IMG/VR virus record: IMGVR_UViG_3300025110_000018
Coordinates: 1-53,856 of that record
Strand: one strand, 5' to 3'
DNA: 53,856 nt
Origin: a virus
The notes below the pieces were generated by a model. The model was not told the origin of the DNA and did not search any database. It saw only the letters and a program-made list of their open reading frames with translations. The position numbers were made by a program, and so were the translations under genes. Below are positions 1,350-32,918 of this stretch, in pieces. Numbering within the stretch: position 1 is the first letter of the stretch; the number at the start of each line of letters is the position of its first letter.

Positions 1350-1563
1350 TACTTTTATTTAATTTAACATTACCACAAAAATAAGAAACATACAATCTCT
1401 CCTCACTCATGTTTATTTCTATTTGATCTACAAATTCTACAATTAATTCACCGCCCCTTTTAATACATGAGGACCAATCTTCAAATTGATAATCATAATC
1501 CATAGGAGGTCCACAAGTTTTAGAAATAGAAGAGCATATAAACATAACTAAGAAAAATTTCAT
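1342..1563 (-). CDS. small secreted or lipoprotein-like hypothetical
   Basis: 73 aa starting MKFFLVMFICSS, a short hydrophobic N-terminus resembling a signal peptide, with Cys residues at about 10 and 17. The start is chosen because ATG overlaps the upstream stop as TAATG; a longer in-frame start at 1584 would lie inside the upstream oxygenase gene. The rest is unremarkable and not recognised. A role in the periplasm, for example at lysis, is possible only by analogy. Confidence 0.5.
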   Translation of the reverse strand: MKFFLVMFICSSISKTCGPPMDYDYQFEDWSSCIKRGGELIVEFVDQIEINMSEERLYVSYFCGNVKLNKSNG

Positions 1564-2114
1564 TATTTTACCAAAATGTTGCAAGTTACTCTTTGCCAGT
1601 TATATGTTTCTGACAAAGGTGATTCTCCTTTGTGAAATTCGTTTGAGTCAAATATTATAGCACTACCCGGTTTAAATTCAAATTTTTCTCCATCAACATA
1701 AAATGACCCCCTCCAATCAGGTTGCCAAATGGGAGTCATAAACAATAAAATAGATTTTGTACCAGTATCTTCATCATCATCTCTGTGTAACCAGTGTTGA
1801 GTTTTTTTACCACTATAAGTAGCATTAAACCACATTCTAAATACAGAAGTTGGAATACCTATATTTTTTTCCTCTAGTAAAGCATGTATTCTATGAACTA
1901 AAGTTTGACCCCACATAAAAAAAACATTATTTTTTATTATTTCATTATTATCTTTTACTTGTAATACGGGACCTGAGTTAAATTCAAATCTACTGTTTTC
2001 ATTTTTAAAACTAGATATAGCATTAATGTTCCAACCATCACTACCAATTAAATTGCTATATAAAAAATGTAATTCTTTTTGGGAAAGAACATTATCCAAT
2101 ACTATTGTTTTCAT
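1563..2114 (-). CDS. 2OG-Fe(II) oxygenase-like protein
   Basis: 183 aa. It has the layout of prolyl-hydroxylase-type 2-oxoglutarate/Fe(II) oxygenases: metal motif H110-R-D112 (HWLHRDDD), a central strand region with PDWRGSFYVDG, distal metal ligand H161 (NEFHKGES) and R175 (WQRVTCN) as the likely 2-oxoglutarate carboxylate binder. Enzymes of this fold hydroxylate proteins, small molecules or nucleic-acid bases. It closes an oxygenase-rich run (1563-3825) with translational coupling on both sides. The substrate is unknown. Confidence 0.8.
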   Translation of the reverse strand: MKTIVLDNVLSQKELHFLYSNLIGSDGWNINAISSFKNENSRFEFNSGPVLQVKDNNEIIKNNVFFMWGQTLVHRIHALLEEKNIGIPTSVFRMWFNATYSGKKTQHWLHRDDDEDTGTKSILLFMTPIWQPDWRGSFYVDGEKFEFKPGSAIIFDSNEFHKGESPLSETYNWQRVTCNILVK

Positions 2115-2626
2115 AATTTCTGTATTCTTCTACCATAAAAACCAATTGATGCAATAATTCTAGGTGTAAGTCCAATTACTTTATGTTTTAAATCTTTTGG
2201 TATAAAAATCATGTCACCTTTTTCAATGGTGTAGTCTTCATTTATATTACTATAAACTCTGTAAATAGTTTTACCTTCAAGACCTATTATAAAAACATCT
2301 TCTATGTCTACATGAGTATTACCTATTTGAGAAACAAAACTAAAAAATAAATCCACTGCATCTTTTTCATTCCTTTCATATTTTAAAAGTCTACGTAAAA
2401 AATCACTAAAAGTTTTAAATTCTTCTAAACAATTATTTACTGCAAACATTTGAAACACATCTTTTAAATTTCCACCATTTGTTTTGTTAACAATTTCTAA
2501 AGAGTTTTCTTCCATTAATTGACTTAATAAATTAAAATCATATTTTCTTTCTAACAAAGCAAAATTTTTTATTAATGTTACTTTGTTTTCTTTTATAGAA
2601 ACTAACTCAGGTTGTTTTATTAACAT
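2111..2626 (-). CDS. JmjC/cupin-like putative oxygenase
   Basis: 171 aa. The second half looks like a cupin or JmjC beta-barrel: THVDIEDVF (H105-V-D107) supplies the first metal pair, a strand-rich stretch includes GLEGKTIYRVY, and KGDMIFIPKDLKHKV places the distal H148 in the usual cupin motif. The N-terminal half is helical and resembles no domain I know. It lies in a coupled series with other oxygenase-like genes (ATGA overlap with 1563-2114). It could be a protein hydroxylase or a non-catalytic cupin; no substrate clue. Confidence 0.65.
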   Translation of the reverse strand: MLIKQPELVSIKENKVTLIKNFALLERKYDFNLLSQLMEENSLEIVNKTNGGNLKDVFQMFAVNNCLEEFKTFSDFLRRLLKYERNEKDAVDLFFSFVSQIGNTHVDIEDVFIIGLEGKTIYRVYSNINEDYTIEKGDMIFIPKDLKHKVIGLTPRIIASIGFYGRRIQKL

Positions 2627-2853
2627 TACTTTATATTATTTTCTTTTATCCATTTTTTATCAGATTCATCTAATTTTAAATATCTAATACGTCCATTAAT
2701 ATGTTGTTTAGTATCGTGGCCACAGTTAGTGCATCTATAAAATTCAGATACGATAGCCACCAAGATAGCTTCCTCTTCACATTCTTCACACAGTCCATGC
2801 ACTGTGTCTATTTTTCTAAACATTTCTATTGATTTTTTATCTATCTTACTCAT
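2626..2853 (-). CDS. small Zn-ribbon protein
   Basis: 75 aa with CEEC near residue 22 and CTNCG near residue 41, a two-pair zinc-ribbon spacing like that in transcription-factor or ribosomal Zn ribbons. The C-terminus is charged. Start and stop couple to neighbours (TAATG downstream, 8-base overlap upstream). Similar small Zn ribbons occur in marine T7-like and T4-like phages; the binding partner is unknown. Confidence 0.65.
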   Translation of the reverse strand: MSKIDKKSIEMFRKIDTVHGLCEECEEEAILVAIVSEFYRCTNCGHDTKQHINGRIRYLKLDESDKKWIKENNIK

Positions 2854-3340
2854 TTCTATAAAATATATTTAGCGTGTATCTTGGAGAACTTTCACCTAAA
2901 GCTTGTAGATTTGTATGACGAATATTTGAATCAAAAAACAAAACCCTGTTTTTTTCAAAACCAACATATCTATCTATGTCTCCTTCATTGTTATAAAAAC
3001 CTGTTCCATTATGTAATAAAGATTTTCCTTTTAAATAGCATAAAAAATTATATTCTGTTTCAGAATCAATGTGGGGTAAAACTTTTGTAAAACTATGTCT
3101 TAATCTAAAGGAACATTCAACTGCTTTTAATTCTATATCTTTAAAAAATGTTTTTTTTATTTTATCAAATAACCATTTATTTTCTTTATCCGGATTAAAA
3201 TTGTGAGAAAAAAATCCTAAAGCTGTTCCAGAATCATTCTTACCATGTTTTAATTGAATTCTATTTAAGTTACTAACTAAAATATTTAACTCTTTTTCGT
3301 TAAAAAAATCGTCAACAACAGCAATATCTATTTTACTCAT
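2846..3340 (-). CDS. 2OG-Fe(II) oxygenase-like protein (copy A of a tandem pair)
   Basis: 164 aa. Candidate catalytic residues are H90-I-D92 (VLPHIDSETEY), distal H142 (NIRHTNLQ) and R154 (SPRYTLNIFY). It is clearly paralogous to the next gene (3337-3825): both begin with VVDDFFNEKELNILVSNLN and end with LGESSPRYTLNIFY, but differ in the middle, which is the expected substrate-facing region. The two genes overlap by four bases (ATGA). This arrangement indicates a local duplication followed by divergence. The substrate is unknown. Confidence 0.75.
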   Translation of the reverse strand: MSKIDIAVVDDFFNEKELNILVSNLNRIQLKHGKNDSGTALGFFSHNFNPDKENKWLFDKIKKTFFKDIELKAVECSFRLRHSFTKVLPHIDSETEYNFLCYLKGKSLLHNGTGFYNNEGDIDRYVGFEKNRVLFFDSNIRHTNLQALGESSPRYTLNIFYRNE

Positions 3341-3825
3341 TTTTTATAAAATATATTTAATGTGTATCTAGGAGAACTTTCTCCTAAAGATTGAAGATCA
3401 GAATGAAAAATAAGTGAGTTATAAAATATGATTCTATTTTCTTTAAATCCAACATACCTATCTAAATTTGTATCGTCATTATAAAATCCAGTTCCATTGT
3501 ACATTAATTCTTTTCCTTTTAAATAAGCTAAAAATGCATAATCTGAAAAATCATCTTGATGAGGCAACATTTTTTCAGAATTATGTCTTAGTCTAAAAGC
3601 ACACTCATTAGAAATTGGTTTTAAATTTATATTTTTAAAAAGGTTTTTTTTAATTTTATCAAACAACCATATATTTTCTTTGTTTTCTTCAAAACCATGA
3701 CCAAAACCATATTTGTCACCTTTTTTATTTTGTTGATGTTCAAAATTTATTTTGTTTAAATTACTAACTAAAATATTTAACTCTTTCTCGTTAAAGAAAT
3801 CGTCAACAACAGTAATATCTTTCAT
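3337..3825 (-). CDS. 2OG-Fe(II) oxygenase-like protein (copy B of a tandem pair)
   Basis: 162 aa paralog of 2846-3340. Metal motif H89-Q-D91 (LPHQDDFSDY), distal H141 (IFHSDLQ), putative 2-oxoglutarate-binding R153 (SPRYTLNIFY). The stretch NGTGFYN followed by LDRYVGF is shared with copy A and probably forms the core strands. Only residues about 30-75 and some loops differ strongly. It starts two bases downstream of the endolysin stop, so it is probably co-transcribed with the lysis gene. Confidence 0.75.
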   Translation of the reverse strand: MKDITVVDDFFNEKELNILVSNLNKINFEHQQNKKGDKYGFGHGFEENKENIWLFDKIKKNLFKNINLKPISNECAFRLRHNSEKMLPHQDDFSDYAFLAYLKGKELMYNGTGFYNDDTNLDRYVGFKENRIIFYNSLIFHSDLQSLGESSPRYTLNIFYKK

Positions 3826-3827
3826 AG

Positions 3828-4304
3828 TTATACTATATCTTTCGCTTTTCCAATTATTGGTTTGTATTTTGTTTTACCTTCTGATTTATACGCGTGCATA
3901 AACTGCTCACGTCTTCCTTCTGGAATCCAACTACAATGTATCCACCCACTGTTAGGTTCACCTGGAGTATAGAACTCAAGGATGAGCTGATCTGTTTCTA
4001 GGTTCTGTTTAATCCAATCAGCGACTTCAGCGTTGTCAACTCCAACACATTCGAAGTCCGCCGCTTCAGCTTTTGCATGTTGGCTGTTCTGACTTGATCC
4101 TATGGCAAGGCACAGCTCTATACTACGGAACCCGCTAGTCACCTTGACTCTACCAAAATGGTCCCGGACGGGCTGTAATATATTTTCACACAAGTCTTTT
4201 AATTTCTCTATTTGACCTGCGTTTGGATTATTATTAATCCCTTTACGAACAGCTGTGTCCGATTTAATTAATTCTAAAAGGGTAAAATTACGTGAAAGAT
4301 TCAT
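3828..4304 (-). CDS. endolysin, peptidase M15-like
   Basis: 158 aa, typical length for single-domain M15-type (D-Ala-D-Ala carboxypeptidase or VanY-like) phage peptidases. Zn-ligand motif H76-x6-D83 (HAKAEAADFE), likely catalytic E110 (LILEF) and H123 (WIHCSW) are all present. The preceding stretch VKVTSGFRS is typical of the family. It would cleave peptidoglycan cross-peptides at lysis. There is no signal peptide, so export would need a holin; membrane-protein candidates are at 5535-5921, 15825-16043 and 43727-44110. Confidence 0.8.
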   Translation of the reverse strand: MNLSRNFTLLELIKSDTAVRKGINNNPNAGQIEKLKDLCENILQPVRDHFGRVKVTSGFRSIELCLAIGSSQNSQHAKAEAADFECVGVDNAEVADWIKQNLETDQLILEFYTPGEPNSGWIHCSWIPEGRREQFMHAYKSEGKTKYKPIIGKAKDIV

Positions 4305-4762
4305 TATAAATATATATCTGCAACAATATTAATTCTAAGTTTATTTACATATTTTTTTACTGGTCTATGTTCAATGTTTGATTTCCAAACATACCATGTA
4401 TTTATATCTGGTTCAATAGTAAAACCATCTTTAAATTCAGTCCCAACTGAATCATTTAAATAACAAATAGCGCTAAATTTATTTTTATCATTTCCGTGAC
4501 TGTGCCATTCAGAGTTTATATTACTTTCTGGAAAAGTAATAAAGCACCACATTTTATCAATTTCACTAACTTTAAATGTAGATTTTAAAGATTCTTGAAA
4601 GATAGGAAAATAATTATGTAGGTTAGAATCACTTTGATATTTAGGGTGATCACAAGTTTTAAATTGCTGACAACATGGGTTACCTTTTAAATATAATATA
4701 AGTGCATTTTTAATAGAATCATTATTTATTTTTTTAAGAATAGGACAGGGTTTCATTATCAT
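4304..4762 (-). CDS. putative 2OG-Fe(II) oxygenase-like protein
   Basis: 152 aa from the ATG that overlaps the upstream stop as ATGA; longer starts to 4789 lie inside the sulfotransferase gene. The second half has the jelly-roll layout: H87-S-H89 (EWHSHGND), a strand with KFSAICYLND, then NTWYVWKSNIEHRPV placing distal H132, and R143 (KLRINIVADI). The first metal motif is HxH, not HxD/E, as in two other oxygenase-like proteins here. It could be a divergent active enzyme or a non-catalytic relative. It is coupled to the sulfotransferase, suggesting a joint role. Confidence 0.55.
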   Translation of the reverse strand: MIMKPCPILKKINNDSIKNALILYLKGNPCCQQFKTCDHPKYQSDSNLHNYFPIFQESLKSTFKVSEIDKMWCFITFPESNINSEWHSHGNDKNKFSAICYLNDSVGTEFKDGFTIEPDINTWYVWKSNIEHRPVKKYVNKLRINIVADIYL

Positions 4763-5301
4763 AAAATAATTCCATTTTGCCATTTCCACAAAAAAGAAGA
4801 ATTTTTTATACTGTTATATACGTAATAATCTAGTTGTAGATGTTTCATTACTTCTTCTTTATCAATATCTAATTCAATATTTTTTTTACCAACACTTTCA
4901 TATTCAATTTTATTAAAATGCATTTTTAAAAAAAGTGAAAGATCTTTTATATCAACATACCAATCTATGTGTGTATTAATTAAATAAGGCACTTGTGACC
5001 CAGTGTGATTTATTCTACCTTCATCTCTTTTTTTTATATTAATTAAAGATTGATATAAATCTTCTTTATCTATATCTTTTAGTTCTAAATTTTGAAGAGC
5101 TAAATCATATTTTAAACCTGATATAAATCTTTCATAAGGATCTCTTATAACAGTCCACCTAACTTTATCTAAATTAATATCAAATGTTGGAGTATAATCT
5201 AAACTTTCCATACATTTTAAAACACTGGTAGAACCATTTTTATGTATTAATAAATATTGAAACTTATCTGTTTCAAAAAATTCAACGTTTTGAAAAAACA
5301 C
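4759..5301 (-). CDS. sulfotransferase family protein
   Basis: 180 aa, starting at GTG. The two PAPS-binding signatures of carbohydrate-type sulfotransferases are visible: the 5'-phosphosulfate loop LLIHKNGSTSV (residues 17-27) and the 3'-phosphate motif VIRDPYERFISGL (51-63). Such enzymes transfer sulfate from PAPS to a hydroxyl on sugars or proteins. At 180 residues it is short but holds both motifs. Neighbouring oxygenases that could create hydroxyl groups, and glycosyltransferases elsewhere, make a modification role plausible; the acceptor is unknown. Confidence 0.75.
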   Translation of the reverse strand: MFFQNVEFFETDKFQYLLIHKNGSTSVLKCMESLDYTPTFDINLDKVRWTVIRDPYERFISGLKYDLALQNLELKDIDKEDLYQSLINIKKRDEGRINHTGSQVPYLINTHIDWYVDIKDLSLFLKMHFNKIEYESVGKKNIELDIDKEEVMKHLQLDYYVYNSIKNSSFLWKWQNGIIL

Positions 5302-6013: not shown

Positions 6014-6658
6014 TTATTTTTTATCCTCGATATCATAAAACATTTTATCAGAATCTTCAGTTACCCAGTCGTCTCCTTCTACGTCCCAGTATGTTGTTTG
6101 CACCTTATAGTCTGGCCAATCGTTTTCTGTTGTGTAGCTGTTAACATGCCAAATGATTCTGTTATTTGGCTGAGCTGCATAATTACCATTTTTCAACGCT
6201 AATATGTGTGCACACTTGTGCTCTTGCGGTATTTCAGAATGTTCCGTATTAAGTATATTAGTCTCTGGATGCGCCCAGTCAATAGTAAATAAGTATTGAC
6301 CTTTGTAAAATTTTTTATCTTTACCTAGATATTTTCCATCTATACCAGCCAACCAATCAAAACAATGCACGCTAGGATAATAACTAAAACAATTCCACAG
6401 CTGTAATTGGTCTGCCGACATATCCGGCACATCGGCTCTAGAAAACTCTTTTTGAAAAAACGCTGATATAGGCAAACGCCAAAAGCACGCACCGTTGGGT
6501 AGCATGATGTTAAATAAGAGTGCACGACCTGATATAGAGCTAATACCAAAGATAACGCATTCACGACTGTCTTTCTTATATTTTTCATCCATGTCATAGA
6601 GATACTCCCTTCTTATTTTACAATAAATTGGCGGTATATTAGCATTTAAGTAAGACAT
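6014..6658 (-). CDS. conserved phage protein of unknown function, 214 aa
   Basis: Soluble, aromatic-rich protein (MSYLNANIPPIYCKIRR start; many Trp and Tyr; contains CFDWLAGIDGKYLGK and FTIDWAHPE). I recognise no catalytic motif. Proteins of this type recur in marine podovirus genomes, but their role is not known to me. It lies between an oxygenase gene and the lysis-like cluster and is probably transcribed with them. Confidence 0.65.
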   Translation of the reverse strand: MSYLNANIPPIYCKIRREYLYDMDEKYKKDSRECVIFGISSISGRALLFNIMLPNGACFWRLPISAFFQKEFSRADVPDMSADQLQLWNCFSYYPSVHCFDWLAGIDGKYLGKDKKFYKGQYLFTIDWAHPETNILNTEHSEIPQEHKCAHILALKNGNYAAQPNNRIIWHVNSYTTENDWPDYKVQTTYWDVEGDDWVTEDSDKMFYDIEDKK

Positions 6659-6667
6659 AGTACATAA

Positions 6668-7183
6668 TTATTTTTTATCAAAAAATATACTTGTTGTAAA
6701 TCTATAACTTGTTCCTAATATGTTTTGAGATTTAATTGTGTGAGGTATTTCTCCATCAAAAATTATTAATCTATTTGGAGTATAAGGACTAGAAAATAAA
6801 ATATCTTTTTTATTATCTTTATAGAATACAGTTTCTCCACCCCATTCTGGATTCCATGTTATATTAGAATAATGCAAAGCAACAACTTGATTAGGATGAA
6901 CATGGACAAAATTGACATCCATTGGTTTTGTTAAATTTACTATACATTTATTATTATAATTATTTATTCCTATATTTTTATCTTTTAATTTATCTAACAC
7001 AGGTTCTAATAGTTTAGTTTTCTGTATATCTAAAAGATTATATTCAGCGTGTATATTAGGAAAAGCTCTATGTTGTAATTCATCGCTATCTTCCCAACCT
7101 ATTTTAAAATTAGAATTCATAATTAAATTAAATAAATTACTAGATTCATGAGCGGTTAAAAGATTATCATAAGTTTCTATCAT
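6668..7183 (-). CDS. 2OG-Fe(II) oxygenase-like protein, HxH variant
   Basis: 171 aa. It matches phage prolyl-4-hydroxylase-like proteins in layout: NFVHVHPNQVVALHYSN (H94-V-H96) then NPEWGGETVFY, distal H148 (GEIPHTIKSQ) and R161 (SYRFTTSIFF). The usual acidic residue of HxD/E is replaced by His, so metal binding or activity may differ. The start overlaps the DNA polymerase stop (TAATG), an unusual place for an accessory gene: it would be translated from the replication transcript. The substrate is unknown. Confidence 0.65.
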   Translation of the reverse strand: MIETYDNLLTAHESSNLFNLIMNSNFKIGWEDSDELQHRAFPNIHAEYNLLDIQKTKLLEPVLDKLKDKNIGINNYNNKCIVNLTKPMDVNFVHVHPNQVVALHYSNITWNPEWGGETVFYKDNKKDILFSSPYTPNRLIIFDGEIPHTIKSQNILGTSYRFTTSIFFDKK

Positions 7184-24066: not shown

Positions 24067-25000
24067 TGATTGCTCCTTGTAAAAATCGTGTCCAAGATAA
24101 ACCCTGTTTATCCCAATTATAATATTTATTTGTATATTTAATTTGAAATTTTAAATGTTCGTTTACTGCTTCACTTTCTAAAGATTGTGCAGCTGCTTCG
24201 ATAGCAGCAGCAAATTTAGTAGCCAATAATTTATAGTTATCTGTATATGGAATGTAGATAGGAAACTCTGCACCTGTTTCAAACAATGCACCCAGATCTG
24301 TTGTTATACAATACAAACCTGCTGACATACATTCTAATAAAGAGATACAAGATGTTTCTTCAAATGTACTTGGATATGCATACATTCTATAATTTTTTAA
24401 ATGTTCTCTAATATATTCATTTGATTTGTAACCGATGTAATTTACATTAGGTAATAAATCTGCTTGTTCATAAAGTGTTTTATAATATTTATCATTCTGT
24501 TCGTAAAAATCTTTTCCATATACTTCTGTAGAAGAATATACGTCTAATGTAATTAGTGGGTTCTTTATTAACTGCATCGCACCTAATAAAACATTCAATC
24601 CTCTCCAAGGTGTGTTTTGATGTATTATCTTAATTTGTTTTCCCTTCTGATATGTAGTTGCTACAGGTTCTATTTTCTCTACACCGTTTTTTATAACAAC
24701 ACATTTTTCAGTAGGTAATTTAAAGTATGTTCTAAACTTTTCATATGACCAATGACTATTAAATACATACCAATCGTACTTACTGTGATTAGTTGAATCA
24801 CTAAACCATGGTGCAAGATTCGGTTGATCGTAAGAATTTTTTTGCCAAAGTATATTTACTTTAGTTGGATGTAATGGAATCTTTTCAGGCACTGATGTAC
24901 ATATTTGTACCTGATTTAATATTTTAGAATCTACATGTTTTTGTAAAAACTCAAATTGTAATTCTGTTCCACCTCTAGGATTATTATTTGTGAATGACAT
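24053..25000 (-). CDS. GT-B type glycosyltransferase (family 4-like)
   Basis: 315 aa. Starts MSFTNNNPRGGTELQ, a Gly-rich N-terminal loop; the C-terminal nucleotide-sugar domain shows IIHQNTPWRGLNVLLGAM, NVNYIGYKSNEYIREHL and the EX7E motif in TFEETSCISLLECMSAG, followed by TTDLGALFETG. This is the GT4/GT1 retaining fold. Overlaps by 17 bases with the upstream oxygenase and 14 bases with the downstream glycosyltransferase indicate one operon. Confidence 0.85.
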   Translation of the reverse strand: MSFTNNNPRGGTELQFEFLQKHVDSKILNQVQICTSVPEKIPLHPTKVNILWQKNSYDQPNLAPWFSDSTNHSKYDWYVFNSHWSYEKFRTYFKLPTEKCVVIKNGVEKIEPVATTYQKGKQIKIIHQNTPWRGLNVLLGAMQLIKNPLITLDVYSSTEVYGKDFYEQNDKYYKTLYEQADLLPNVNYIGYKSNEYIREHLKNYRMYAYPSTFEETSCISLLECMSAGLYCITTDLGALFETGAEFPIYIPYTDNYKLLATKFAAAIEAAAQSLESEAVNEHLKFQIKYTNKYYNWDKQGLSWTRFLQGAINAKQ

Positions 25001-25508
25001 AACTAACTGATGTTCTCCAATATGGTATTTTTTTTATTGGTTGTGATGCATGTAGTTGGTTAGAGTCAAATAATATAAAATCACCTGGATTATATTTAAT
25101 AACTTTTCCTTCTATATTTAATTCTCCTCCCCAATCTTCGGCCCATTGCGGTGTTAAAAATCCTACAATACTATAACTAGTATCATTACTGTCTTGATGA
25201 AATTCTGTAAAATGATTATCATTTTGAGCATTCAAAGCTATTCTTTTTATTCTTCTTTGAATTTGAAAATTATGTTGTTTTCGTAATTCTGTATTTATTC
25301 TATCAAATAAACAATTAAAATATCCCAACCAATAAGAATCATTATATACTACTTCCTCATTATCCATAAATATAACTCCAGGAAAAGCACCACCTATTCC
25401 ATTTATTGTGCTATTTCTATTTAATGACCACATATTATTTGAAACCAAACCTGTATGCAGGGCAAACAACTCTTCTTTATTTAAGACGTTACTTATTATC
25501 TTTATCAT
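24984..25508 (-). CDS. 2OG-Fe(II) oxygenase-like protein coupled to glycosyltransferases
   Basis: 174 aa with a full catalytic set: H104-Q-D106 (TEFHQDSNDTSY), VGFLTPQWAEDWGGEL, distal H153 (SNQLHASQPI) and R165 (YWRTSVSYVI). It resembles prolyl-hydroxylase-like phage enzymes and the one at 1563-2114 in layout. It overlaps the His-rich tail-region gene upstream and the GT-B gene downstream, so oxygenase and two glycosyltransferases would be made together; hydroxylation followed by glycosylation is an attractive but unproven reading. Confidence 0.8.
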   Translation of the reverse strand: MIKIISNVLNKEELFALHTGLVSNNMWSLNRNSTINGIGGAFPGVIFMDNEEVVYNDSYWLGYFNCLFDRINTELRKQHNFQIQRRIKRIALNAQNDNHFTEFHQDSNDTSYSIVGFLTPQWAEDWGGELNIEGKVIKYNPGDFILFDSNQLHASQPIKKIPYWRTSVSYVIHK

Positions 25509-28964: not shown

Positions 28965-29468
28965 ATGGTAAAGTTTGATCCATTTGCTCATGAAAATCTA
29001 TTCTATGAATATATATTAAAAATTACCAATGAAGAAGTAAATCAAATTTTAATGATGGTAAAAAATTTAGATGCATATGGGTCCAAAGAAATCTCAGAGT
29101 GTAAAACTACTTTTACCACATTTAACATCTTGAATTTTCCTATATTAAAAAATTTAAAAAAACAAATCACTAATATTTTAGATAAACATAAATTGTTTCT
29201 AGATAACAATTGGGCTCAGTTATATAATACAGATCATGGTCACTCTATTCACTTTCATGAATCTTCTATATATTCTGGAATTATTTATATAAAAGGAAAC
29301 AATCCTAGCCCAACTGTTTTCTACAGTAAAAAGTTTAATCCATATGATCATAAATTTAAAGCTAATACATTATTATTGTTTCCTTCAATGATTCCTCATG
29401 AAGTTAAAACATTGAAAAAAGACGAGGAAAGATTAATAATATCTTTCAACGCTGGGAAAGTTTGTTAA
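28965..29468 (+). CDS. 2OG-Fe(II) oxygenase-like protein (PF13759-like, HxH type)
   Basis: 167 aa, first gene of the plus-strand cassette. HSIHFHESSIYSGIIYIKG carries H96-F-H98, matching the H-x-H...SG-x-YY pattern I associate with the 2OG-FeII_Oxy_5 family; LLLFPSMIPHEVKTL gives distal H145 and EERLIISFN gives R156. Enzymes of this group are mostly uncharacterised. Ends seven bases before the next oxygenase. AT-rich like its neighbours, on the strand opposite the surrounding tail genes. Confidence 0.7.
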   Translation: MVKFDPFAHENLFYEYILKITNEEVNQILMMVKNLDAYGSKEISECKTTFTTFNILNFPILKNLKKQITNILDKHKLFLDNNWAQLYNTDHGHSIHFHESSIYSGIIYIKGNNPSPTVFYSKKFNPYDHKFKANTLLLFPSMIPHEVKTLKKDEERLIISFNAGKVC

Positions 29469-29475
29469 TAAAATT

Positions 29476-30021
29476 ATGGATCATTTAGAAGCAGTTGTTA
29501 AATTAGATAATATAATTGATAAAGATTTTATAAAAAAAATGATACCATTTATAGATCATAGAGCAAAAGAATATTTAACTACCACTGGAGGCTTACATAA
29601 AAATGTAAGAAATGTAAAAGGCTTTCATGTAAATAATGAAACTCCTACAAACATTTTTTATTGGAATTATATAAAGAAAGAAATAGAAAGATTATATAGT
29701 TTTTATAAAATTAAATTTCCAGCGATGGAAAGTTCTGAAATTAATCAAATAGATTTATTAAAATATGGGGTTGGTGGAAAATATGATTCACATACCGATC
29801 AAGGCACATCTGCACCAAGACATTTAAGTATTATTATGAATTTAAATAATAAGTATGAAGGTGGAGATTTAGTTTTTGCAGATCAAAAACAAAAAGAAAT
29901 AAAAAGATTAAAACTAAACACTGGATCAATAGTATTTTTTCCAAGTAATTTCATGTATCCACATGGTATTCAACCCATTACAAAAGGAACAAGGTATAGT
30001 ATAGTTGCATGGCTACAATAA
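29476..30021 (+). CDS. 2OG-Fe(II) oxygenase, prolyl-4-hydroxylase-like
   Basis: 181 aa, the clearest P4H-type enzyme in the window. H106-T-D108 (YDSHTDQGTSAPRHLSIIM), EGGDLVFAD, GSIVFFPSNFMYPHGIQP with distal H163, and R173 (GTRYSIVAW) are all in the expected order. Expected reaction: oxygen-dependent hydroxylation of a protein side chain or small molecule with 2-oxoglutarate to succinate. Overlaps the next oxygenase by 13 bases, so translation is coupled. Substrate unknown. Confidence 0.85.
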   Translation: MDHLEAVVKLDNIIDKDFIKKMIPFIDHRAKEYLTTTGGLHKNVRNVKGFHVNNETPTNIFYWNYIKKEIERLYSFYKIKFPAMESSEINQIDLLKYGVGGKYDSHTDQGTSAPRHLSIIMNLNNKYEGGDLVFADQKQKEIKRLKLNTGSIVFFPSNFMYPHGIQPITKGTRYSIVAWLQ

Positions 30022-30587
30022 AAAATAAATTAATTAAAAATTTTTTTAGTAAAGAAGAATTAAATATTCTTCAGAAATATTGTATTAATAAACTACATTC
30101 CACTACAGATTATTTTATTGATCCTCAATCTTTTTCTCCGGCGTGGTACAATGATTCTTTAATGGATACTTTGTTAGAAACTAAATTATCTTTTGTAGAG
30201 AAAGAATCTAAATTAAGTTTGTTTCCAACATATACATATTGGAGATATTATGTATACGGAGGATCGCTACGTAAACATAGAGATAGACCTTCTTGTGAAG
30301 TATCTATTACTGCATGTATTAAAAAAAATGATAACTGGCCTATTGTAATTGAAGGTAAAAAATTTGAATTGGATGAAGGTGATGGTATTATATATAATGG
30401 AGTTTTTCAAAAACATGAAAGACCAGGCATATATAAAGGTGAAGGTATGGCACAAGTTTTTTTTCACTATGTAGATAAAGCTGGACATTTCACAAGACAT
30501 CAATATGATAAGTATTTTAAAAATACAGGAAATAAAGCACACGAAGAGGATTTAAAATGGATGCGATTGAAAAAACCGTTAATATAA
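30009..30587 (+). CDS. 2OG-Fe(II) oxygenase-like protein
   Basis: 192 aa. YVYGGSLRKHRDRPSCEVS holds H90-R-D92; DEGDGIIYNGVFQKHERPG gives distal H136; MAQVFFHYVD is the last core strand, where Gln149 (not Arg or Lys) is near the usual 2-oxoglutarate contact. The sequence between, NNWPI-like in style (DNWPIVIEGKKFEL), resembles other marine phage oxygenases. Third gene of the plus-strand cassette, overlapping both neighbours. Confidence 0.75.
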   Translation: MATIKNKLIKNFFSKEELNILQKYCINKLHSTTDYFIDPQSFSPAWYNDSLMDTLLETKLSFVEKESKLSLFPTYTYWRYYVYGGSLRKHRDRPSCEVSITACIKKNDNWPIVIEGKKFELDEGDGIIYNGVFQKHERPGIYKGEGMAQVFFHYVDKAGHFTRHQYDKYFKNTGNKAHEEDLKWMRLKKPLI

Positions 30588-31156
30588 CTAACTTCATAGG
30601 TGTCTATGATAATTATATTAGACCAGAAGAATGCGATAAAGCTATTAAATTATTTGAAGATCAAAATAAATTTAATAATACATTAAATAGAATAGCTTTT
30701 GAAAAATCATCTATAACACATAAACAAGATCAACAATATTTTGCAGCACCTAATAATATAGATGTTTGGTGGGAATCATTAAAACCAATGATGTTAAATT
30801 TTGATATAGCTTGGAATCATTATGTAAAAAATACAGGTGCAGACCAAGCTTATGAAGAGTCTTTTTATTTTACAGATTTAAAAATACAAAAAACTTTACC
30901 TACAGAAGGTTATCATGTTTGGCATATAGAACATGGAAAAGGACATGAAAATGAACCTAGAGCTTTTGTTTATTCAATATATTTAAATGATGTTGAAGAA
31001 GGTGGAGAAACAGAATTCTTACATTTTTCAAAAAGAGTACAACCTAAAAAAGGTAGAATAGTTATTTGGCCTGCAGCATTTCCTTATTTACACAGAGGTA
31101 ACCCACCACTTTCTGGTGAAAAATATATTTTAACATCTTGGATGATGTTAAAATAA
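30557..31156 (+). CDS. 2OG-Fe(II) oxygenase-like protein, HxE type
   Basis: 199 aa. YHVWHIEHGKG contains H123-I-E125, then AFVYSIYLNDVEEGGETEFL, KGRIVIWPAAFPYLHRGNPP with distal H179, and K189 or nearby residues in the last strand (GEKYILTSWMMLK). HxE in place of HxD is known in some active family members. Last gene of the plus-strand cassette; its stop directly abuts the stop of the convergent tail-collar gene at 31157. Confidence 0.8.
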   Translation: MDAIEKTVNITNFIGVYDNYIRPEECDKAIKLFEDQNKFNNTLNRIAFEKSSITHKQDQQYFAAPNNIDVWWESLKPMMLNFDIAWNHYVKNTGADQAYEESFYFTDLKIQKTLPTEGYHVWHIEHGKGHENEPRAFVYSIYLNDVEEGGETEFLHFSKRVQPKKGRIVIWPAAFPYLHRGNPPLSGEKYILTSWMMLK

Positions 31157-31738
31157 TTAAGTTTTTATAAGATACATTACAGTTAGATAAGGCTGCACAA
31201 CCGAAGTAGCATCCCCAGAAAAATTGGCACTCATATTGTGGGAGTGACCACCACCTGAACCTGTATTACCTGAACCAGATGGACTGGCTGTAGGTCCTTG
31301 ATATGGGTGACTCATTGGTCTATTAGATCTATAAGCAGGATTAAAATTAGCGTATCCTTTGGGGTGACTATGAGAAGCAAGTTGTGGAGTTGATAAAGTT
31401 GCATTGGCTGTACTCCCCGCAACGTTTCCAGTTGTTGTTACAGTATTAGCACCACCTGTTGATGCTAAAGCTTTATTATTAGATTTTCCAATTGCTACAT
31501 TGTCAGACAAATTAGGAACAGCAAAAGTAGAGGAACCATCACCTGCACCATAAGTTGTCCCTACAATTGCAAATAATGCTGAATAAGTACTTCTTGAAAC
31601 TGTTTGGCCATTACATTCTAAATATCCAGACGGCACTGAAGAATCAGACCAAGGAATAATAGTTGCTGTAGGGATACCTTCAATGTCAGTAAGGTTTGCC
31701 CCATCGAAATCATATTTTGTTGCTTCGTAATTTGACAT
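31157..31738 (-). CDS. tail collar protein (copy 3 of tandem triplet)
   Basis: 193 aa with a phage tail-collar domain: TATIIPWSDSSVPSGYLECN, SRSTYSALFAIVGTTYGAGD and GSSTFAVPNLSDNVAIGK. The C-terminal QPYLTVMYLIKT is conserved among the three copies. Between HSHPKGY and GGGHSHNMSA lies a loop of about 37 residues rich in Pro, Asn, Ser and Gly that differs completely from the other copies. Such proteins are usually receptor-binding or fibre-tip proteins. It faces the oxygenase cassette tail-to-tail. Confidence 0.85.
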   Translation of the reverse strand: MSNYEATKYDFDGANLTDIEGIPTATIIPWSDSSVPSGYLECNGQTVSRSTYSALFAIVGTTYGAGDGSSTFAVPNLSDNVAIGKSNNKALASTGGANTVTTTGNVAGSTANATLSTPQLASHSHPKGYANFNPAYRSNRPMSHPYQGPTASPSGSGNTGSGGGHSHNMSANFSGDATSVVQPYLTVMYLIKT

Positions 31739-31746
31739 AATTTATC

Positions 31747-32334
31747 CTAAGTTTTAATAATATATATTATAGTTAAATAAGGTTGTAAAACTGAAACAGC
31801 ATCACCACTAAAGTTTGCACTCATATTATGACTATGTGCACCTCCTGAACCAGCGTTACCTAAACTAGTATTTGTGTTACCGAATGCTGTATACTCTGGG
31901 TTATCTTGTCCAGGGTTGTTGTTTTTATTTGGAGGTCTAACATAAGTTGCAGCTCTTGGGTGACTATGAGAAGCAAGTTGTGGAGTTGATAAACTTGCAT
32001 TAGCTGTTGAACCACCTACGTTTCCAGTGGCTGCTACAGTATTAGCACCACCTGTTGAACCTACTGCTTTGTTATTTGATTTTCCAACCGGTACGTTATC
32101 TTGTAAGTCAGGTACATTAAAAGTACTTGAACCATCCCCAGCGCCATAAGTTGTACCTACAATTGCAAACAATGCAGAGTAAGTTGATCTTGAAACTGCT
32201 GCACCATTACATTCTAAAAAACCTGATGGGACTGAAGAATCAGACCAAGGCACAATAGTTGCTGTAGGAATTCCTTCAATACCTGTAAGGTTTGCTGCGT
32301 CGAAATCATATTTTGTTGCTTCGTAGTTTGACAT
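31747..32334 (-). CDS. tail collar protein (copy 2 of tandem triplet)
   Basis: 195 aa, same domain order as its neighbours (VPWSDSSVPSGFLECNGA, TYGAGDGSSTFNVPDL, STPQLASHSHPR, GGAHSHNMSANFSGD, QPYLTIIYIIKT). Its unique loop (about residues 132-168) is Asn/Pro-rich, with VRPPNKNNNPGQDNPEY. Presumably encodes an alternative receptor-binding tip. Eight bases separate it from each adjacent copy. Confidence 0.85.
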   Translation of the reverse strand: MSNYEATKYDFDAANLTGIEGIPTATIVPWSDSSVPSGFLECNGAAVSRSTYSALFAIVGTTYGAGDGSSTFNVPDLQDNVPVGKSNNKAVGSTGGANTVAATGNVGGSTANASLSTPQLASHSHPRAATYVRPPNKNNNPGQDNPEYTAFGNTNTSLGNAGSGGAHSHNMSANFSGDAVSVLQPYLTIIYIIKT

Positions 32335-32342
32335 AATTTATC

Positions 32343-32918
32343 CTAAGTTTTTATTACGTATATAATTGTTAAATAAGGTTGAATAACTGAAGTTGCATCC
32401 CCAGAAAAATTGGCGCTCATATTGTGAGAATGTCCACCACCTGAACCTGTATTTGGTGTAGCTGATCCATTTTTAGCTGCTGCTTGATATTGGGGTATAC
32501 TTATTTTTCTAAATCTACCTGGACCTGCAGCTACTCCTTGATTGTGATTATGAGAAGCAAGTTGTGGAGTTGATAAAGTTGCATTGGCTGTTGAACCACC
32601 TATATTTCCAGTTTTAGCTACAGTATTAGCACCACCTGTTGACGCTAAAGCTTTGTTGTTAGATTTACCTAATGCTATATTATCTTGAAGATCTGGAACA
32701 AGAAAAGTAGATGAACCATCACCTGCTCCGTAAGTTGTACCTATGATTGCAAATAAAGCAGCATACGTTGATCTTGAAACTGCTTGACCATTACATTCTA
32801 AATATCCTGATGGTACTGAAGAAGAAGACCATGGTATAATAGTTGCTGTAGGGATACCTTCAATACCAGTAAGGCTTGCACCTGAGTAATCATATTTAGT
32901 CGCTTCGTAATTTGCCAT
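32343..32918 (-). CDS. tail collar protein (copy 1 of tandem triplet)
   Basis: 191 aa, first transcribed of the three. Conserved parts: IEGIPTATIIPWSSSS, CNGQAVSRSTYAALFAI, FLVPDLQDNIALGKSNN, GGGHSHNMSANFSGDATS. The variable loop (about residues 128-163) includes basic PGRFRKISIPQYQAAAKNG, more basic than the other copies. Role at the tail tip inferred from family. Confidence 0.85.
   Translation of the reverse strand: MANYEATKYDYSGASLTGIEGIPTATIIPWSSSSVPSGYLECNGQAVSRSTYAALFAIIGTTYGAGDGSSTFLVPDLQDNIALGKSNNKALASTGGANTVAKTGNIGGSTANATLSTPQLASHNHNQGVAAGPGRFRKISIPQYQAAAKNGSATPNTGSGGGHSHNMSANFSGDATSVIQPYLTIIYVIKT

Follow-up and report, generated by a model that had tools for sequence, protein, structure and literature searches.

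A small viral sulfotransferase-fold gene as cargo of oxygenase-rich phage islands

In a phage genome a putative sulfotransferase gene runs into the start of an oxygenase-type gene, which raises the question whether the two products act together or whether the genes share no more than a place in the genome. The locus is part of a 53,856-base virus record from IMG/VR, which is called the window here. Its terminase-portal region has 77.6% identity to Pelagibacter phage HTVC027P with 49% of the query covered, and gene order is similar across the compared regions. Considering this relatedness, the sequence probably derives from a marine phage with a SAR11 bacterium as host.

In the 54-kb record there are no fewer than ten different genes of the 2OG-Fe(II) oxygenase type, and one JmjC_2-type gene (1563-31156; Table 1). 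Such an expansion is already known for HTVC023P-type pelagiphages (PMC9599517), a related phage type that likewise has many small oxygenases per genome; unlike in the window, no sulfotransferase appears in the text of that report, and ferrochelatase is the co-located partner. The tail-side oxygenase island is followed immediately by three tail-collar-type paralogues in tandem (193, 195 and 191 aa; 31157-32918), which are possible targets of the island enzymes. A further gene (6014-6658) matches PHROG_3704 (E 5.8e-77), which is named ferredoxin; no Pfam domain was found in it, and this name may be wrong.

Table 1. Sulfotransferase, partner and further oxygenase-type and neighbouring features of the window
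Feature	Position	Strand	Remarks
Sulfotransferase, 180 aa, GTG start	4759-5301	-	HKNGSTSV (20-27), RDPYERFIS (53-61), H99..Q103
Partner, 2OG-Fe(II) oxygenase type, 152 aa, ATG start	4304-4762	-	HxH...H...R = H87, H89, H132, R143
ATGA overlap	4759-4762	-	Sulfotransferase stop/partner start
M15 peptidase-type endolysin	3828-4304	-	
2OG-type oxygenase, subfamily 2	3337-3825	-	HxD
2OG-type oxygenase, subfamily 2	2846-3340	-	HxD; tandem paralogue of 3337-3825
JmjC_2/cupin-type protein	2111-2626	-	Possible additional oxygenase
2OG-type oxygenase, subfamily 9	1563-2114	-	
2OG-type oxygenase, subfamily 22	6668-7183	-	
Tail-side island, four 2OG-type oxygenases	28965-31156	+	Inverted between 655-aa tail gene and tail-collar genes
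2OG-type oxygenase	24984-25508	-	Adjoins glycosyltransferases

Identity and distribution of the sulfotransferase

The motifs HKNGSTSV and RDPYERFISG, which the original prediction had claimed for the sulfotransferase, are both present in the minus-strand open reading frame. The match of the window protein to Pfam Sulfotransfer_2 was weak (E 0.0022, 18.6 bits) and below the curated cut-off of 22, and for this reason we class the protein on its sequence as Sulfotransfer_2-like, with a predicted sulfotransferase fold, and not as a full Pfam member. Sulfotransfer_2 matched 23 of 25 family members at E < 0.1, the best with 1.7e-5. In an alignment of 82 homologues K21 and N22 (PSB loop), R53 and R58 (3′-PB motif), H99 and Q103 were invariant. 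Both the lysine of the 5′-PSB loop (K21) and the arginine of the 3′-PB pattern R-x7-S (R53) were thus present in 82/82 sequences; at position 61, 55 of these have Ser, as has the window protein (S61), 26 have Ala and one has His. The family shares the invariant PSB-loop Lys, the 3′-PB Arg and a conserved His/Gln region with Sulfotransfer_2 (PF03567; carbohydrate-type sulfotransferases), but it differs in the frequent replacement of S61 by Ala, in the low Pfam score of the window protein and in length, with about 180 aa versus about 213-275 aa in the host members found. Comparison of the family profile with a Pelagibacteraceae Sulfotransfer_2 profile by hhalign gave a probability of 93 (E 3.5e-7), the match being confined to the two PAPS motifs.

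The AF2 model of the sulfotransferase (pLDDT 80, pTM 0.77) matched viral sulfotransferases in BFVD with Foldseek probabilities up to 1.00. Sulfotransferases were frequent among its PDB fold matches, below significance, and none was found among the sequence-search matches in PDB. The predicted fold is also like that of sulfotransferase-like proteins from SIO1 (gp5.1), Synechococcus phage ACG-2014f, P-SSM7 and Ralstonia phage phiRSL1 (Foldseek 0.8-1.0), which are of comparable size (~190-285 aa); identity in the structural alignments was 12-15%, and tblastn between these proteins and the window family gave no match. No oxygenase was matched in Pfam among the neighbour genes of SIO1 gp5.1. A Sulfotransfer_3 sulfotransferase was described in two OM43 phage genomes, and the function of phage sulfotransferases was called unclear (PMC10580990).

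The gene is under purifying selection. Nine close pairs had dN/dS values of 0.08-0.18, two of the nine resting on three changes; one more close pair, with ten changes, had a value of 0.33, and another pair was identical. Considering the invariance of K21 and R53 in 82 sequences and a dN/dS of about 0.1, the gene very likely encodes a working enzyme. Motif, profile and fold agree and the main PAPS-loop residues are kept, and we conclude from sequence and model that the predicted sulfotransferase is a genuine enzyme of this fold and under selection. A defence system was rejected, since PADLOC gave no match to the sulfotransferase and only a weak generic 2OG match to the partner.

The family is present on at least 154 viral contigs. 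The 80 fetched contigs represent the relatives with the highest scores to a single query alignment, and clustering at 95% identity gave 50 non-redundant loci. A degenerate-pattern scan of 84,980 cellular species genomes detected no family member, which led us to reject a recent cellular origin, and a tblastn search of 50,697 annotated phage records with the window protein and a divergent member gave no match. The family was found here in viruses only.

The overlapping partner and the oxygenase islands

As originally predicted, the two genes overlap by ATGA: the sulfotransferase gene ends with ATT TTA TGA, and the ATG of the oxygenase-type gene overlaps this stop. Because of this overlap we take the frame listed in Table 1 as the partner and reject the start proposed by the ORF lister, a GTG at 4789. 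The partner matched PHROG_274 (E 2e-7) and oxygenases on other contigs (E 4.5e-6, single-sequence phmmer). With a profile built from 357 oxygenase genes of these phage loci the match had E 3.7e-15; the partner was itself included in this profile, and the independent evidence is the PHROG_274 match and the fold. The AF2 model, of modest confidence (pLDDT 66), is a double-stranded beta-helix with prolyl-4-hydroxylases as PDB matches (E 7.5e-5). The best of these are PBCV-1 collagen prolyl hydroxylase (vCPH), which ranks at the top, and P. putida P4H, both with a probability of 1.00. Unlike these enzymes, the partner is shorter and its ligand set HSH...H...R has His at the second ligand position where Asp is usual; the same replacement occurs in the 2OG-FeII_Oxy_5-type gene at 28965-29468. 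We model the partner as a 2OG-Fe(II) oxygenase type that is prolyl-4-hydroxylase-like. PHROG_274 itself, which matches the window genes starting at 1563, 2846, 3337, 4304 and 6668, is labelled DNA endonuclease V; this label looks wrong, since several of these window genes are matched by 2OG-FeII_Oxy families of Pfam.

The exact pair is conserved in same-species contigs only. The partner was found in three such contigs, and the same ATGA junction was not found in other non-redundant relatives of the sulfotransferase. Overlaps of 1-4 nt are common throughout the window genome, so that ATGA is nothing special, and we rejected the joint as a signal considering its confinement to one species.

The neighbourhood of oxygenases is nevertheless a property of the family. 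The direct same-strand neighbour is a 2OG-type oxygenase in 42/50 non-redundant loci. For the remaining genes the share is 14% across the loci and 31% within the same runs. In 47 of the 50 clusters an oxygenase lies in the same run as the sulfotransferase, and in 49 one is found within 3 kb, both strands counted. The neighbours belong to more than ten oxygenase subfamilies, at frequencies near those obtained by shuffling within islands; subfamily 10 reached p 0.007 among about 14 tested, and no preference was left after correction. In some loci a carbamoyltransferase or methyltransferases take this place. The sulfotransferase is thus associated with the island and not with one enzyme: it is cargo of oxygenase-rich islands and not half of a fixed pair. 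The original idea of an oxygenase-coupled sulfotransferase holds in so far as the family adjoins oxygenase genes in nearly every locus, but we reject a dedicated pair, considering that the partner is restricted to one phage species and that the shuffles gave no subfamily preference.

The islands recur at two kinds of sites. The site lies close to the 650-aa tail gene or to the tail-collar genes in 41 of the 50 clusters; a typical tail-side island is inverted between them, and its first gene is some 45-65 bp away from the divergent tail gene. In six clusters, among them the window, the sulfotransferase adjoins the M15 endolysin or is near it, which makes this its second recurrent home. On a tree of 50 proteins the endolysin label changes four times, and at least three of the changes are forced by well-supported branches. 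These repeated changes indicate that the sulfotransferase has moved between sites. Islands commonly have 4-6 oxygenases, up to nine, and additionally contain a carbamoyltransferase (Carbam_trans_N) and SAM methyltransferases. The GC content is 23.9% for sulfotransferases, 26.6% for oxygenases and 35.4% for other genes; a low GC common to the first two is as expected of shared cargo, judged by composition. In L010 (2586-4213) and in L020-L024 the sulfotransferase is followed directly by the carbamoyltransferase, which is split into two overlapping ORFs (~361 and ~180 aa).

Such mobility would also suit an active sulfotransferase whose function has nothing to do with that of the oxygenases. Hot spots at the tail side and the lysis side would then gather low-GC genes for host manipulation, and the enzyme would use a hydroxyl that is already there, on a host surface glycan or on a metabolite, for instance to block superinfection. 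Several observations speak for this view: the exact partner is not conserved, the more than ten neighbour subfamilies occur about as often as after shuffling, the endolysin site turns up in separate parts of the tree, and the islands carry other cargo as well. However, the family was never seen away from oxygenases (in the 50th cluster the nearest is at 3.2 kb), and an oxygenase is nearby even on L035, a contig with different tail genes. We consider this explanation rather unlikely.

Possible coupled action and the supply of sulfate

Tentatively, and with a chance that we put a little short of even, we favour coupled action: a small PAPS-type sulfotransferase as island cargo, with enzymes that act on one target class. 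The sulfotransferase would travel beside tail genes or the endolysin in islands composed mostly of prolyl-4-hydroxylase-like 2OG-Fe(II) oxygenases, and the island enzymes would act sequentially or in parallel on, e.g., side chains of virion or tail proteins or a cell-surface glycan. Oxygenases would install hydroxyls, and the sulfotransferase would cap a hydroxyl, new or pre-existing, with sulfate from host PAPS; the sulfated hydroxyl may itself be an oxygenase product. Activity, donor, acceptor, order of the steps and the benefit for the phage are presumed in this scheme. The islands also encode a carbamoyltransferase and methyltransferases as further group-transfer enzymes, which counts for coupled action. 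Against it count the missing subfamily preference, since a common insertion site may account for the neighbourhood, the alanine at position 61 in 26/82 sequences, the non-significant PDB sulfotransferase matches and a doubtful supply of PAPS by the host.

This last point concerns the donor. The genes cysDNCHIJ and sat are missing from Ca. Pelagibacter ubique (PMC5069961), and cultured SAR11 is without the usual route to PAPS. We found APS kinase above the cut-off in 7/197 host-family genomes, many of which are incomplete; all seven matches are in open frames of 607-630 aa, and the six that were read are CysNC-type. About 26 additional genomes have APS-kinase-like ORFs of 160-200 aa below the cut-off, and 5/197 have Sulfotransfer_2 genes of their own. 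The records of the window, L057, L046 and HTVC027P gave no APS kinase, and PAPS supply encoded by the phage was rejected on these four records. Judged from the genomes, PAPS supply by the host thus appears doubtful, and some hosts may use PAPS. Either the carriers infect PAPS-making strains, or there is another route to PAPS, or the chemistry is different. Many Pelagibacteraceae genomes have a short (~137 aa) APS-kinase-like P-loop gene, and in L212 (968-1749) such a P-loop gene lies beside a nucleotidyltransferase-like ORF.

A sulfotransferase fold with a different chemistry or donor, or an enzyme that works only in the PAPS-making minority of hosts, would account for the mostly missing host pathway, and also for the variable position 61, the short protein and the lack of a significant PDB match. 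On the other hand, K21 and R53 are invariant, and the below-cut-off APS-kinase-like ORFs together with the host Sulfotransfer_2 genes make PAPS use possible. We regard this as distinctly unlikely.

Possible targets and meaning of the islands

The original prediction had combined hydroxylating, glycosylating, sulfating and methylating enzymes into one set. HTVC027P gp80 and the window glycosyltransferase share 72% identity. The edge methyltransferase gave no match of its own in family libraries; its full copy in L009 has 64% identity to HTVC027P gp24, annotated as putative methyltransferase. HTVC027P has a relative of one tail-side oxygenase (85% identity) and none of the sulfotransferase. By these homologies the glycosyltransferase and the edge methyltransferase belong to a phage backbone common to HTVC027P, and since they occur there without the sulfotransferase, they are no evidence for a single pathway of these four steps, which we rejected.

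In other phages, sets of oxygenases with glycosyl- and carbamoyltransferases of such kind modify DNA. Oxygenases of the islands could accordingly oxidise modified bases, which sulfo-, carbamoyl- and glycosyltransferases would decorate, and a report on HTVC023P-type phages describes DNA modification genes (PMC9599517). However, no C5 DNA methyltransferase was found in the records of the window, L057, L046 and HTVC027P, the partner resembles protein prolyl hydroxylases most closely in its fold, and the islands sit with tail and lysis genes. DNA hypermodification is therefore highly improbable, and we rejected it on the missing C5 methyltransferase.

The nearly constant place of the sulfotransferase among oxygenase genes suggests that these phages chemically decorate proteins or sugars. 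It is conceivable, if improbable, that in marine phages exchangeable islands of protein-hydroxylating oxygenases with sulfo-, carbamoyl- or methyltransferase diversify the phages' own tail or host-contact proteins and that virions carry sulfated hydroxy-residues; we know of no protein modification system of this kind in phages. No paper that links sulfotransferases to oxygenase islands was found in the open-access papers searched. What is new here is a viral sulfotransferase variant embedded in oxygenase islands, with a putative function in these islands. Viruses of the most abundant marine bacteria keep arrays of different small oxygenases. The sulfotransferase within these arrays raises a sharp question, with most SAR11 genomes seemingly unable to make the usual sulfate donor. 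Since sulfate is traceable, this conserved enzyme is also a chemical clue to the function of the arrays.
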